This document shows positions 12,615 to 21,452 of a DNA stretch of 64,000 nt, piece by piece. A program made the position numbers and the translations under genes. The DNA comes from Ceratobasidium sp. AG-K. Its lineage: Eukaryota; Basidiomycota; Agaricomycetes; Cantharellales; Ceratobasidiaceae. Each line of letters starts with the position of its first letter. Within the stretch, counting starts at the first letter, position 1. The notes beneath the pieces were generated by a model. It searched no databases. It saw only the letters and a program-made list of their open reading frames with translations, and was not told the origin of the DNA. The stretch lies in the NCBI GenBank assembly GCA_037039685.1, contig JAWNGF010000011.1, positions 806,001 to 870,000 of the forward strand. Direction: 5' to 3'.

Positions 12615-13611
12615 TCAGGAGGCCTGGGTGGGTTGAGCTTGACTCTTTCGTCGTCGCTTGCGTTTATGTCCGCCACCACTAGCAATCTCTCGGTGTGATT
12701 CTCCTTCGACAGGCCCAGTGAGCTCATGATGCGATCCACTAGGCTGCCCATCATCATCATCGCGTTTCCGTTTAGGTGGTTTGGTCACTGCAGTGTTGAC
12801 TTTAGGTTGTTGCTTGCCATCACTGGTCGCTGGTTTCGATTTCTTTTTCTTCGTGCTCAGCGGGTTCGGCCCTTTGGCTATTTTACGCCGGTGTATTGGT
12901 TCAGCCGGCGCAGGTGCTGAGTTTGACGCAATGGCACGAGCCTCGGGTGCGCTGATGCCCATACCAGCCGCCTCGGACTGGGAGGAGTATGGGAAGTACG
13001 ATCATAAACGCGTCATAAAAAATGGACACACCTGATCTTTGGCTTTAATTGTTGCTTCGCTACGGGGTTCTAGGACCATGACCGAGCGGTTGATATGTAC
13101 TAAGGGTACAGCCGGAATTTTTCGTAGTTTATTGCGGAGATCGGTAGACTGGGAGGCAACAACGTATCTGTGTTTGTTGGTCTCACCTAACTTCCTTCAG
13201 TATGACAAGAGATCCGAGTGTAAGGCAATTCAACGTACCTACGACACTTTCTACGCAAGGCTCGTTTTCAATTGCTTCTCTGTGGTTGCATTTTCGTCTC
13301 TCGAACATTTTTGCGAGATCAACGATGGGTTGCGCCGATGGGCCAAGTTTATACAGCTCGACCATGCTACATTGCGTGATCACTAACTAAGGTTAATCAA
13401 TATAGTTCAAACGAAAGGGCGTTCCAAACTCACTAAGTTTGCATTCTCCTTGAAGCACAGTCGTAAGTTGTTTGAGAGGGTCCATTTTATGCTGGCAGAT
13501 TTCGATGCAGAACGTCGAATCAACGAGAACCTGATAGGGTTGGCGGAAACCAAATGTCATAGAGTACAAGCTCATGAGCTTCTTGTAGGCCTTTGAGCGT
13601 TTTTGTCTCAT
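12615..13611 (-). CDS. UTP23: rRNA-processing protein Utp23
   Basis: Utp23 is a PIN-like domain protein of the small-subunit processome needed for early 18S pre-rRNA cleavage. The N-terminal exon starts at 13611 with MRQKRSKAYKKLMSLYSMTF, GFRQPYQVLVDSTF and DPLKQLTTVLQGECK, all typical of Utp23. After introns come MITQCSMVELYKLG and AKMFERRKCNH, then PCVESVVG (about 13383-13235), carrying Cys/His residues of the zinc-binding insertion. The second half includes NKHRYVVASQS-like sequence near 13165 and ends in a Lys/Arg-rich tail (STKKKKSKP, KPPKRKRDDDDG, GGHKRKRRRKSQ) that suits a nucleolar RNA-binding protein. The start codon faces the chromodomain gene at 13832, leaving 220 bases for a shared divergent promoter. 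Confidence 0.9.
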
Positions 13612-13831
13612 TGTAGCGAGGTTTCAATGTTCCAAGTGAGGAGGAGGAGTGAAGATTTGAGAGTGACGTATTTCGTAACGCGGCCACGTGATGAGGATAA
13701 ACATTGGTGGCACCTCATTGGCCGCCACTTAGCCCTTTCAGCACGGTCACTACTTACTCTTTGTTTCGCGTCCGCGTGCATCGAAAGAACCACCATAATC
13801 GAAGGACAAAATAAACTCATGAGTAGCTAGT
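13612..13831. promoter_or_regulatory. Divergent promoter UTP23 / chromodomain-WG gene
   Basis: Only 220 bases separate the two start codons, so both promoters must overlap. I see no clear TATA box. A CACGTG palindrome (ccacgtgatg) lies near 13683-13691. Confidence 0.5.
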
Positions 13832-16800
13832 ATGGCTCAGTCTGACAACGAAAGCGGAGATTCACAGTCGGACGATGAATATGAAGTTGGTAGGTGTTAG
13901 TTTCTATTAACTCTTGAATGAATGATTTACTATATGAAGAATATATATTTGGTGCCAGATGGGACGGTGCAGGCTGGGTGAGTTTGTTCACTACTCCCTC
14001 GGTTTGAAACACGCTGATCCTTGATCAGGAATACGGAGTTCATGTGGGTATACATCCCACGATACTTGGGCTTAGTTCTTACTCAACATAATACAGTGGT
14101 ACGGATACGATTCAGATTGCGACACGTAGGTCCCTGCTTTCTTTCATTCTGGGTACCCTAAATGTTAGTATTAGGTGGGAACCCGAACGTCATCTAACGG
14201 ACTATGGGTCTGCGGGGATAGTCCGTCGCTTCTGGCTGCTGTTTCCCAAGAAACGCGTGCGTTTTTGTCACGACCACTTGGATATTACGGACTGACATGG
14301 GTTGATAAAAGTATTCGAATCCAACCGCTGGAACTAAGTATAAGGCTCCGGCAGACTGGTTAGGTACGTTGGTGTTCTCCATGAAAGTTGACATACTTAA
14401 ATCCCATATTCCCAGCCGATGAGAGGAAACACTTTCTCGCTAACCGTCCGAAGAATAAGCCTGTGAAGGGGCTTGAACGGCCACCAAGAAAGCCGGATAA
14501 TAAGATCATTTTGCTGGGGGACTCGGAATCTGACTCGGGGTTGGTACGTAACGAACAAGATAAACTAATGTAAGGTAGCCTAAGTCCCTCTTCAGGATAA
14601 CGGAAAGGAGCGGGCAGCTCATAGTTCTCACGACGATGAGGATATCCTACGATCTAGCTCTGAGGAAAAATGGCAAGATGAGGACATCTTGCGTTCGTCG
14701 TCCTCGGAGGATACACCCCTCATGAACAGACGTCAGAGTCTCCCTCAGCCCCGGGCTAGTAGTAGTACTGGTTCAGGTACCAAATCACGCACAACTGGGA
14801 AGCGCCGCTATACCGTTGACTCAAGGAACCCCCCTCAGCCCACCCGTCCGAGTTCTTCGTCCTCACGTCCAGTCGCGTCCGCTTCCTCAGCCTCAGCGTC
14901 AACATATAGATCACACTATGCTCCGCCCACTGTCCGGGCGACAAAAATTGCAAGAGGGTCCACGCAAACGTCACGACGGGGGAGACCGATTGGTGTTGGT
15001 CGTCCAAACATGCAGGCAGGGTCCATATCCAAGGACTTTGTTGGAATTGGCACCAAGGGGAAACAAGCTGAGCGTGCGAACGAGGTACTCGCCCTAGGTC
15101 GCCGGGGGTCGGCACATCACGCGGCTCCCTATGCTGGGATGACAATGAGGAAGGCACCAGCTGCTCAAACGTCGAGCAGCACCGCTGGTGGTAATCAACC
15201 AACGGTTGACACTACGCGTGTTGATTCTCCCCTTGAAATGTCTCCGGTAGGAATGATATCCAAGTAAGAGCTCTCGTAAAACTAACAGAGTGCAACTACT
15301 GACAGTTGTTAGTGCCCCTTTACCTGCACAGCTGGATATCGACAGTCTAATCAGTGAGGTAGCGGCCGAGAAGGGTATCGATGTACCGAGTCCACCAAAC
15401 AGTCTCTTTGAGTACGTATCTTCTTTGAGTTTAGGGCTAGATTAACCCCAGACGCAGCGGTCCAGAGAGTGACGAAGACGAGGCACCACCCACGATCAAT
15501 GCAGATAGTGGGCAGTTTATACCGAATGCCGATGGTATGGATATCGACTGGACGGAGCCCCCTCCGCCACCATCCCGCCCTGCACGGCCAAGTATATTGA
15601 CCGGAACGCGCGGCTCAATGGATGGACCTTCATCAGCGCGTGGAACTACATCCGAGCAGCCATTTGGGCTGTCCCCGTTACTCAACAGTCGCCCGCTAGA
15701 AGCTCCAGCACGGTAAGTGCTTTATATCAGATCGTCACCCTTACTCAAGGCGCCTTCAGATCTGTTATTCCTCCACTTCAGCCTGGCCAATGGTCTTGGA
15801 CTGGGGACGTCTACGTTACCACCGACGAACCCATTCCCGGCGAGGAGGAAAAGACTCAACAAAAGCTTACCCGTGTGTGCGATACCGTCATTCGTGACCC
15901 GGTAATCCCAGACAACAAGGCGATTCTTTTGTTCAAAAATGCGTTTGAACACTATGTCCAGGGCAGGTTAGCACTGCCCGGCGCCATGGATGTCAATCTC
16001 TCATATGCGATCATCACGTCGGGTGCGTTGGAGCCCACGCAAGCGGCATGGATGGTGTGTGCACACAACCAAGAAACTCCCGAGTGGGAGTTGTGGGACG
16101 GATTACTGCGTAAAATGGAAATGCTACTCTGGGTAAGCCATTGCCTGTATCCTCTTGCATGCACTGATCATTGGATAAAGGTATCCGACGTCCGACTCTA
16201 CCGTACAACCGACAATATCGAGCTTGGCAGTCGTCTCGTTCTCATCCCGACAACACTAATATCCAAATATCGACACGCGCCAAACCCCATACTGGCCCGG
16301 GTCGTCGAACACTTCAATTCCTATTCGTACACAAGCATACCTAGCTTTGTCGTTTTGATGTGCAAGACCATCAGGCCCGCAGAAGAGAGACTCCCGCCGC
16401 CAGCCCTACTCCCGCAAATCCCCGAATATTGGCAAGAGATCCCACCCGACTACAAACCCATATTCAAAGGGATGAACTGTCTCGTGTTCCCGCCCGAGAA
16501 TCATGACTGCGACTACGAGGTTAGGCTAATGCGTCATCAACTTCGTCAATGTGGCGCCAACGTGCTCGACGGGACGGATCCCACAGGTCAGGCTGGGTCA
16601 ATCTTCATACACCGGCGCTATCTGGACCAGTTATTCAAGTTGGTTGGGTTTGCGCTCCGCAAGCACAAATATCGCAAGCGGTTCTATGTGTACGGGAGTG
16701 GAGGGAACTGGAGAGTCGCCGAGTGGGATTTTAGAGAAGTTTGGATGTGGGGTGAGCGCATATATCCCGTGTTTTGGCACCCGCTAACGACTGGATTTAG

Positions 16801-17870
16801 GTGGAATGATTACATTTACGCCCTCTGCGATCATAGAGGATCCCGGGGCCGTGAGAAGAGTTGTTGATGCGCTGGAAGGCAAGCCAAATTGGGAAGCCTA
16901 CATCGAACCTCAAACGGTCGGGCTCCTAGCGAAGCATGCGCGAAGGACCGGAAACACCGAGTGAGTATTCTGCTCTCGCTACAGCACTATTGGCTCATCC
17001 CCTTTATAGCCTCTCCTCGGAAATCGACATCCTCATGGCCGAGCTAGTCACGTCTGACGACATTGCATTTTACAACCTCGCATTGACGGCACCACCCAAG
17101 TGGGGCAAATGGGCCGAGCATGAGTGGGCTGCGATTACGTATGGGCGAGCGATGATCGAGGATGCTGACCAGTTGCTCGCCTCGTGTGAGCTCGAGGTCG
17201 AGGAGGCGTACAAGGAAGCGAAGAAGAGGGAGCAGGCCGAGAAGGAAAAGGAGGAAGAGCGGAGGAAGGAAGAGGAGAAGGAACAGCGAGAAAAGGAGAA
17301 GGAAAGGCAGAAGAAAGCGCAGGAGCAGAACACGGGCAGTGGGTGGGGCCAGGCCAACGCCGGCGGCTGGGGGACTGGAGGTGCGGACGCTGGAGGATGG
17401 GGAGCTGGCGGAGGCGCCGGCGGCTGGGGCAACGGTTCGACAGATAATGGAGGGTGGGGCACGGGTAGTACCTGGGGAGATGCTGGTGGGTGGGGGTCCA
17501 GTGCCACAGCAGGAGACTGGGGAGCCCCCACTCCCAACGACGCTACGACCAGCAATTCCACAGTCGGCGGTACTGCCGCCCCCGAAATCGACATGTCCGG
17601 CCTAGGAAGCGAGTCGCACATGCAGGCCGTGTGCGACGAAGTCATCGAGGGTCTCAAGTGGTTCCAGATTCAGCCGTGTTTTATGAAAGAGATTCGGCGG
17701 TTTATTGTGATTGATTCGTCGGAGCGGGTCAGGGAGATCAAAAAGAGGGAACATAAAATCCCAGTGAGTCTAGTTGGCACTTTCTTTGGCCCCGTACTAA
17801 TGACTTGTAGGTCGAGATCACTACGGCTAGTCAACTTTTGAGACGTTTCGACGAAGGTCATTGGTGGTGA
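13832..17870 (+). CDS. Chromodomain protein with C-terminal Trp-Gly (Argonaute-hook-like) repeats
   Basis: Fifteen exons close in frame: 13832-13889, 13940-13977, 14029-14043, 14097-14125, 14175-14256, 14312-14363, 14416-14543, 14596-15263, 15313-15411, 15452-15712, 15760-16132, 16181-16751, 16801-16960, 17010-17763 and 17811-17870; total 3348 nt, 1115 residues. Residues about 16-70 form a chromodomain (YEVEYIFGARWDGAGWEYGV, then HWYGYDSDCDTWEPERHL) that keeps the three aromatic cage positions (Tyr in YEVE, Trp and Tyr in HWYGY), so methyl-lysine histone binding is likely. A Ser-rich disordered linker follows. About 480-845 is a folded region opening with PGQWSWTGDVYV (possibly SPOC-like) and including WMWGGGMITFTPSAI. 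About 905-950 is a Lys/Glu helix. About 951-1018 holds eight WG dipeptides. The last 100 residues look folded. By analogy with Chp1 and Tas3 it may tether Argonaute to heterochromatin; that is inference. Confidence 0.85.
17325..17530 (+). repeat. Trp-Gly repeat array inside the chromodomain protein
   Basis: Eight WG dipeptides in about 65 residues: SGWGQ, GGWGTG, GGWGAG, GGWGNG, GGWGTG, STWGD, GGWGSS and GDWGAP, in a Gly/Ala/Ser background. Trp residues are mostly 6-12 apart. Such arrays in GW182, Tas3 and plant Pol V bind Trp pockets of Argonaute PIWI domains. Confidence 0.85.
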
Positions 17871-17991: not shown

Positions 17992-18978
17992 TTACATGTC
18001 AAACTGCAAAAAGTCGTCTTCTTCCTCGATGAGTAATTCTATCCACCTGAAGAAGCTTGACGCTGGGAACCCAACGGCGTTGTAAAAGTCGCCTTCGAGC
18101 TTGGCTACGAGGTGTGCTCCGCGTTGTTGCAGCGCGAATCCACCAGCGCGGTCGAGGCCTTCTCCCGAGTCGACGTACGCCTCGAGCGTCGAAGTCGGCG
18201 AAGAGTGGAATATGACCGTTGTGCGGTCCTCCATCGACCTAGATTGGGTAAGTACGTGCCCCATGGAACTACTCTGCACTCACTTGATCGCGTACCCCGG
18301 CGCGGTCAGGATCGGGTATGCGATCGACACGCCCGTGACGACTTCGCATCTCCCTCCATTAAACTCGAGCAGCATCCGGAGGTTATCCGACTTGTCCATA
18401 GGCTTTTCCAAGATTTCGGGACGGACTGAGGGGAGGAGGGATTCATGGATGGTCGAGGATGGTGCGGTGGGCTTGGTTAGGACTACTGTGTCGGCTACAG
18501 ATCATTGTAAGTATTGGGGCCGGATGGTGGGGGAGGGTTTGAAGTACCCGCTATGACGAGGCTTGGTGGGTCCTCCGGATTTTGTTCCTAATAATAACGA
18601 GGTTATTGGGCGAGTTTGGGTGTGGTCTAGGACTTACGACCAGCCGAACGTATACTTCGACGGCCTGCGGATCCATTTCAGACACGTTCGTCAAAGCGAT
18701 AAAGGCCGCACCTTTTCCGTGGCAGTCGCTACCGGATACTCGTACACATTTTCAAAGTGATCGTGAGGAATATCTTCAGCAAACGTCGAGGGTGAGATCT
18801 CTGGATCCAAGCCCTACGCGAGGGTCAGTCCGCGTCAACAAGTCGATTATATGCCCACAAATTGGCGCAGAATATCAAGCCTGCGTGGACTGGCCGACGC
18901 TAGAACGATGCGCTTATTGGCTAGTTTGGTGAGCGACGGAATGCGCAATGCGTCGGGCAAGACTCGGTTGTGGGTCAT
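17992..18978 (-). CDS. Maf-like nucleoside triphosphate pyrophosphatase
   Basis: Member of the Maf/ASMTL-N family of house-cleaning nucleotide pyrophosphatases (dTTP/UTP and modified nucleotides). From the ATG at 18978: [20 protein letters not shown] (the phosphate-binding SxSPRR motif), then [20 protein letters not shown] after a first intron, [12 protein letters not shown], then [15 protein letters not shown] (catalytic Asp in ADTVV, near 18495-18450), [20 protein letters not shown] and, in the last exon, [20 protein letters not shown] and [20 protein letters not shown]. These are the conserved Maf blocks in order. Ends 120 bases past the stop of the chromodomain gene, tail to tail. Confidence 0.9.
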
Positions 18979-19069
18979 TGTGCGTGACTGAAATGGCTGT
19001 GCTATGGGCGCCTAATTAGGTTGACTTGAGGCCTGTGACTGCATCCAAACCACGACGATCGTCAAACCG

Positions 19070-21452
19070 ATGTACTCTGCGTCGATGAACGCTCCTACTT
19101 CCCACCCCGGCACTAGTACTCCCACCCGCAAACGACCCAACGTTGCACTCAACGCCCTCCGCACCGCTGGACTGATTGATCCCAGCGACAGCCCTATGAA
19201 GGACACCGGACCATCCAGAACTCGTCGCCGAGTGCTTGATAAGCCTGCGCGCAGTGTGGATGTATCGCACGACAAGACGGGGCGAACATCTACTACGGCA
19301 AGTCTTGTTGTTTCAAGTCTTTTTGTTCTTTGTCTCATGTGTTGATGGCCCCTGTCACTGGTCCACCCTCGCTCGGTGGCAATACTTTACATTGGGTAAT
19401 ACAGCGCCCGAAACCCAATGGACTTGCGATTCGCGGCGTTGGCGGAGGTGGTGTGACGACCCGAGGGGCCGGTGGTCCCGCCGCACGACCTCGTCGGGAT
19501 GCACTGAGCAGAGGTTCCGATGCACCCAGCTCGAGCCGTCCAATCACAAGCTCTGCTCCAGGCAGAATCATGCCCATCGAGCTCCTCCGCGAGTTTGTCA
19601 AGCAGCGCTACAACCCCGAGCTGCGATTCCTCAACCTCGAGGTTAGTTCAAATTTACACTCGGCAGTCGGGTGTTGACGTTTCACAGAACATGGCCGAGG
19701 ATGAGTTGCTCAAGTCAAAGAACATTCTCCCACCCGACGATGAAAATGCTTCGCGCCAAGTTGGGCCGGCGCTCCTCAAGTTGGCTGGACAACTGACTCC
19801 TCAAGTGCGTATCAAGTTGCCACATTGGTACTAACATACTCACCTCGCACAGCCCGAATCCATCTCGTTTGCAAACAACAACTTTGCGACGCTTGCGAGT
19901 TTGCATCGGCTGCCCACATTCCTCCCTAATCTTAAAAACATTTCGTTCCAAAACAACCAGCTGCGTTTCTGGAAAGACCTCGAGGCCATTGTTCCCCACG
20001 ACCCCAAGCACAAGGAAGCCGTGTCGAGCGTTCGGGAGATTATTTTGATGGGTAATCCCGTGCACGACACGGAAGTTGCCAAGGGCGATCTCACGGTCTA
20101 TCGAAGGTACGTCCACGTCATGGCTTGCTTCTGTAGACTCAACACAGTCAATCGAATGATAATCAATAGTGAGGTTATTCGTCGTTTTCCCAATCTCGAG
20201 ATGCTCGACCAGGAGCCGATTGTCAAGATTGGTTTCGATGTCACTCTACCGGAGATTACGGAGCGAGACCAGATCATCGAGAAGCAAGATCCCAAGACGG
20301 TTCCTTGGCCTGCTGCGACCTCGTTTGTGGTCGATATGAAGGCTGGGTTCATGGGACCTGGGATCGAAGCCACGACGGTCGAGTTTTTGACCAAGTGAGT
20401 GCATCGGGGTGTGCTTGGACCCGACTGACGTCTGGCTAGGTATTACAACTTGTTTGATTCTGCGCGTGCGCAGCTTGCTACTGCCTATAGTCCGACCGCC
20501 ACATTCTCCCTCTCACTCAACACTTCCATTCCGCCCCGTGCCCGAATTCGGGGGTACCACGCCCACCTCCCCCATCAACGAGAACTCAATTGGAAGCCCT
20601 GGATGGAAGTCGGCTCCCGCAACCTCATGCGTGTGGCCAAGCTCGACAAGACGACGACGTTTTTACGAAGCACATCAGTAGATGTTGTCAAGGCTCTCGG
20701 AGAACTCCCAGGCACTAAACACGACGTGACTGGGACCGGAGGAGCTGTCGTCGACGGAAATGCGATTGGCTCGGCGGCAGGGGGCAAGTTTGTAGTAGAC
20801 GCATTTACCTGTTTGGGTGTCCTTCCAGGCGAGGGAGACGCAGGAATCGTGTTGTTTGTGAATGTGCATGGCGAATTTGCTGAGCGTGCGTTTAAATTTT
20901 TTGCTTTTTTTCGTGTACTTACTCTCGGGATAGAACCCAGCGGTGGATTGCGCTCGTTTGACCGTGTGTTTGTGCTCGCGCCCGCTCCGCCCGACTCGCC
21001 TGCGTTCCAAGCGGGATGGAGTGTGACTATTCTCTCGGATCAACTCACTGTGCGTGGGTACAGCGCCAACGAGGCATGGGTCCCTGGTCCGATTGTCGTA
21101 CAGAATTTGGGAGGCAAGGGGACAACTCCTGTGCCTATGCCGAGTGTGGACATGACGAGTACCGCGGTAGATCCTATTCTAGCCGCTATCGTAAGTCTAG
21201 CTTTACTATTTGCTTGCTTTGGCTCATGCGTGTGTAGCCTGAACCTCAACGCGCACTGCTGGTCGAGTGTGCGAACCGAACTGGGCTGAATGCCGAGTAC
21301 GCTAAAATGTGCTTGGACGGCAATGGATGGGATTTGGCCAAGGCTTTGGCAAACTTCGAAGAGTTGAAGGTGAGCCCACAAATCTACCTCTCGACAAGAC
21401 ACTAACGTTTTGCCAGAACACAATCCCCCAGGATGCGTTTGTTCGAAAGTAA
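19070..21452 (+). CDS. MEX67: mRNA export receptor Mex67/NXF1
   Basis: Large subunit of the Mex67-Mtr2 (NXF1-NXT1) mRNA export receptor, acting at the nuclear pore. An Arg/Gly-rich N-terminus (to about 19560) is followed by RIMPIELLREFVKQRYNPEL, leucine-rich repeats (FANNNFATLASLHRLPTFLP, NISFQNNQLRFWKDLE, VREIILMGNPVHD), the LRR end (EVIRRFPNLEMLDQEPI), an NTF2-like domain (FLTKYYNLFDSARAQLATAY near 20385-20480 to QAGWSVTILSDQLTVRGY near 21060), and a TAP-C/UBA-like end (NAEYAKMCLDGNGWDLAKAL) that binds FG nucleoporins. Seven to eight introns of about 45-60 nt; two candidate starts, 19070 and 19085 (MNAPTSHPG), in the same frame. I see no RRM between the Arg-rich leader and the LRRs. The neighbour PAF1 also works on nascent mRNA, but they are likely separate transcription units. 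Confidence 0.92.

Follow-up and report, generated by a model that had tools for sequence, protein, structure and literature searches.

Can one protein chain both read methylated chromatin and hold Argonaute? The question is raised by a gene of Ceratobasidium sp. AG-K that lies in a 64,000-nucleotide (nt) stretch of contig JAWNGF010000011.1 (positions 806,001 to 870,000), the whole of which is called the window here. The gene joins a chromodomain to an array of eight tryptophan-glycine (WG) pairs, a candidate Argonaute hook. Small RNA-heterochromatin coupling in fungi is best known from the RNA-induced transcriptional silencing (RITS) complex of fission yeast. On balance, the window protein is probably a heterochromatin reader of the type of the fission-yeast protein Chp1, with an Argonaute hook in the same chain.

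Gene Model and Homologs

The coding region, stop codon included, occupies positions 13832–17870 of the forward strand and comprises 3348 nt in 15 exons with a single terminal stop (13832–13889, 13940–13977, 14029–14043, 14097–14125, 14175–14256, 14312–14363, 14416–14543, 14596–15263, 15313–15411, 15452–15712, 15760–16132, 16181–16751, 16801–16960, 17010–17763, and 17811–17870). All 14 introns are GT-AG and 40–55 nt long, and the product has 1115 amino acids (aa). This structure came from homolog-guided splicing, which reproduced exactly the gene proposed in the initial annotation, and the exon choices in the chromodomain region are consistent with the homologs. An unguided splice model (1101 aa, without a Pfam match) was rejected, as its introns 1, 3, and 5 were misread according to the homolog comparison. 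Two separate genes had been considered possible at the locus, but the product aligns over its length with Ceratobasidium and Rhizoctonia proteins annotated as single genes. Judged from sequence, the chromodomain and the WG array belong, on the evidence available, to one gene.

A search with residues 440–1101 of the unguided 1101-aa model returned 19 proteins, and a profile search added two partial homologs, giving 21 (numbered from P0001). All 21 are named Ceratobasidium or Rhizoctonia. The closest named relative is from Ceratobasidium theobromae (family Ceratobasidiaceae, order Cantharellales), with 55% identity over 1008 columns. Their database names (chromo domain-containing protein, chromatin organization modifier domain, hypothetical or unnamed) say nothing further. 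The complete homolog models share one order of parts: chromodomain, linker, SPOC-like core, a GG-M/L-V/I-TFTP segment, charged helix, WG tract, and a QPCFM segment. Of the survey of Agaricomycetes suggested at the outset, the same layout within Ceratobasidium and Rhizoctonia was thus found, while a wider spread was not, the searches being too insensitive to exclude distant homologs.

In the source assembly (53.6 Mb, 17 contigs), 43 of 248 candidates were scored. Among these, this locus alone shows similarity to P0001 outside the chromodomain region, and 32 of the 37 matches are confined to P0001 residues 15–125. Because these are numerous and lie in long open frames, we take them to be putative retrotransposon chromodomains.

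The WG Array

The array covers residues 955–1017 (17338–17526, forward strand), with W at 957, 965, 975, 984, 994, 1000, 1006, and 1015. As the initial annotation had stated, G follows in all eight cases, compared with only 2 of the 26 W residues outside the array-bearing linker. Shuffling the same residues 20,000 times gave an expectation of 3.25 WG in 69 residues against the eight observed (p = 0.0003). The G content of the tract is 41%, and the stretch has no predicted structure in the homolog models.

Nineteen of the 21 homologs extend to the array, and 17 of these carry four to seven WG. The WG excess had p < 0.05 in 13 of the 16 homologs scored, the exceptions being P0001 (0.069), P0002 (0.18), and P0016 (0.16); the test skipped P0010, P0019, and P0021, which have no linker by the rule used, and P0017 and P0018, which have one W each.

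The Chromodomain

Residues 17–66, encoded by exons 1–5 (13880–14232, forward strand), match Pfam PF00385 with a score of 31.4 bits (cut-off 25.1; E = 1.9e-7). The aromatic cage expected from the initial annotation is complete (Y17, W38, Y41), if its positions are those that we take to form it in HP1 and Chp1. Fourteen of the 21 homologs also have a complete Y-W-Y cage; the other seven comprise three fragments without the N-terminus (P0011, P0020, and P0021) and four proteins whose N-terminus is shortened or unusual (P0012, P0014, P0016, and P0018).

A profile of 15 homologs, compared with the PDB, matched the chromodomains of CDYL, HP1, MPP8, Chp1, and Clr4, with CDYL and HP1-type readers scoring highest and Polycomb/CBX lower. 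As the latter appear beside the others, sequence does not settle whether the methyl mark is histone H3 methylated at lysine 9 (H3K9me) or another.

The SPOC-Like Core and C-Terminal Parts

The initial annotation had guessed at a SPOC-like middle domain, and fold comparison agrees: the middle of a homolog's predicted model is best matched in the PDB by the Chp1-Tas3 core, a likeness that sequence profiles did not detect. Mapped from P0001 by offset, the predicted SPOC-like β-barrel covers residues ∼483–664 (15776–16369, forward strand). It is followed by an α/β domain, residues ∼681–779 (16418–16714, forward strand), which is possibly domain II of Chp1, matched only weakly in the homolog's model. 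The stretch between chromodomain and core is modeled without structure.

A charged, E/K/R-rich helix precedes the array at residues ∼902–952 (17179–17331, forward strand) and is a long helix in both homolog models. Behind the array, a conserved C-terminal segment of residues ∼1045–1115 (17608–17867, forward strand; mean pairwise identity 0.65) may form the end of a PIN-like domain. In the P0001 model, the alignment with Chp1 extends to residue 1053 (Chp1 934), a weak match with a predicted local distance difference test score (pLDDT) <50 there, and Pfam gave no PIN family for 18 homologs.

Comparison With Known Silencing Systems

Chp1 is described as a partner of Tas3 that has a chromodomain, SPOC, domain II, and PIN (PMC7532188), and Tas3 is cited as binding Argonaute via WG/GW motifs (PMC2904775). 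Like Chp1, the window protein has an N-terminal chromodomain, a long linker, and a SPOC-like core; unlike Chp1, it has eight WG of its own, and Chp1's domain II is weakly and its PIN not securely matched in the homolog's model. The array is of the Argonaute-hook type seen in Tas3, which in contrast stands on a chain of its own. Pfam gave no Tas3 family for the window protein or 18 homologs, but it missed the SPOC-like core too.

HUSH (TASOR, MPP8, and Periphilin) has been described as RITS-like (PMC7532188). The MPP8 chromodomain is related to that of the window protein and TASOR has a SPOC domain, but the HUSH parts are on separate proteins and TASOR carries a pseudo-PARP. Pfam did not find that domain (DUF3715) in the window protein or 18 homologs, in which the chromodomain and an unstructured stretch precede SPOC. 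In Arabidopsis, NERD reportedly combines a histone-binding module and GW motifs for an Argonaute in one chain; it is said to be plant-specific, with a histone reader that differs from a chromodomain. The basidiomycete Cryptococcus also has GW/WG and chromodomain proteins (Gwo1, Gwc1, and Cdp1), likened to the window protein here by description only and listed as separate genes. In the literature searched, chiefly non-subscription papers, no paper was found to describe a chromodomain protein that carries WG repeats.

RNA Interference and H3K9 Methylation Genes

Argonaute (Piwi) matches occur at six places in the genome, RNA-dependent RNA polymerase matches at eight, and Dicer-dimer matches above the cut-off number two. 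Contig 3 has two similar SET-domain loci, each preceded by a cysteine-rich piece that matched no Pfam family but is most similar in the PDB to H3K9-specific methyltransferases, Clr4 included (E 4.6e-8 to 6.3e-8). The parts needed by a bridge between methylated histone and Argonaute are therefore encoded.

The two very similar loci of this Clr4-like gene lie in opposite orientation (2679440–2679889 and 5583748–5584197 of contig 3). Two Argonaute genes on contig 6 (1492362–1493429 and 2197564–2198631) are likewise in opposite orientation; as their Piwi matches are the same and score nearly alike, a recent duplication seems likely.

Interpretation

With a chromodomain, a SPOC-like core, and a WG array on one chain, the window protein is most simply understood as a reader of the Chp1 type that would itself hold Argonaute. 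Its N-terminal chromodomain would bind H3 in methylated form, with H3K9me deposited by the fungus's Clr4-like enzyme as the likeliest mark, and the SPOC-like core and following domain would serve as a folded scaffold like that of Chp1. The array, rich in glycine and lying between the core and the conserved C-terminus, would grip small-RNA-loaded Argonaute through its tryptophan pockets. One protein would then do the job of Chp1 and Tas3 by keeping loaded Argonaute on methylated chromatin, where nascent repeat transcripts might be recognized and silencing reinforced. We infer that the window protein binds methyl-lysine and Argonaute, acts in the nucleus, and has a role in silencing. The initial annotation had proposed a single-chain RITS scaffold made by fusion; its layout and its likeness to RITS (chromodomain, WG array, and Chp1-Tas3-like core) stand, but given the core match the protein is better called a Chp1-type protein with its own hooks than a fusion of unrelated parts.

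One observation from the same phylum supports a tie between chromodomain or WG proteins and RNA interference (RNAi). Cryptococcus deuterogattii has lost RNAi, and the chromodomain gene CDP1 is reported to be absent from it and two GW-protein genes to be missing or shortened (PMC4778953; PMC8022950).

Several points weigh on the other side. GWO1, one of these two GW-protein genes, is also missing from another strain (PMC8022950). In Cryptococcus neoformans, small interfering RNA production is described as independent of H3K9 methylation, and Gwo1 and Ago1 as a processing-body (P-body) complex (PMC6643885). Fungal Argonautes are reported to differ in their tryptophan pockets, only one of which is conserved (PMC12477606). 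The design of the window protein looks RITS-like and its core Chp1-like, but two domains that define Chp1, domain II and PIN, are unproven in it. Finally, P0017 and P0018 have one WG each and keep the remaining segments, so the array loss in close relatives foreseen as an objection does occur, in a small part of a family that otherwise retains the array. These two form one clade (support 100/100), and a single loss can explain both.

The owner of P0018, Ceratobasidium sp. 414, also has two array-bearing members (P0014 and P0016), giving it three paralogs with and without the hook. Such sister proteins would offer a natural experiment.

Among the alternatives, a Chp1 ortholog that still works alongside a Tas3-like partner protein, and whose WG array does no more than add Argonaute contacts or bind something else, seems unlikely to us, yet fares best. 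The core resembles that of Chp1 as complexed with Tas3, two homologs have lost the array, and a separate partner may exist; retention of the array in 17 of the 19 homologs reaching it speaks against this reading. Somewhat less likely still is a WG tract that is only a glycine-rich, low-complexity spacer or condensate-forming stretch in a chromodomain reader unrelated to Argonaute. Its glycine content, the roughly three WG already found in shuffled copies, the three scored homologs without significant excess, and the loss in one clade all fit a spacer, whereas the strict pairing of W with G within the array but not elsewhere, and the excess in most scored homologs, do not. That the chromodomain reads another mark such as H3K27me3, tying Argonaute to Polycomb-like chromatin, is very improbable, for despite the Polycomb and CBX matches the highest scores belong to CDYL and readers of the HP1 type, and the SPOC-like core suggests kinship with Chp1.

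More tentatively than the Chp1-type reader with a hook, we can picture a self-contained RITS-type effector of the Ceratobasidiaceae: a Chp1 ortholog with the hook placed after domain II and ahead of the last PIN-like strand, possibly bridging H3K9me and Argonaute without Tas3. If true, Basidiomycota would have a scaffold of the Chp1/TASOR type, and RITS architecture would count as a module that has been rearranged. RITS core proteins are patchy among fungi, Chp1 and Tas3 being reported absent from four Mucor species (PMC12863538), and an agaricomycete Chp1-like protein with a built-in hook would show a simpler, single-chain coupling elsewhere.

Linker Motif and Neighboring Genes

Within the disordered linker, residues ∼273–320 (∼48 residues; 15010–15153, forward strand) are conserved, with a mean pairwise identity of 0.65 against 0.51 and 0.45 in the flanking linker (15 homologs; P0001 255–312). 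The stretch has no Pfam match in the window protein and 18 homologs and may be a binding motif.

The neighbors of the gene look ordinary. On the reverse strand lie an Fcf1/Utp23-type gene (about 13000–13623) and a Maf-like gene (about 18020–18980), and on the forward strand a Mex67/NXF-type export factor with an NTF2 domain (about 19070–21450) and Paf1 (from about 21620). In fission yeast, Paf1 counteracts small-RNA silencing; its proximity to the chromodomain-WG gene may be chance.
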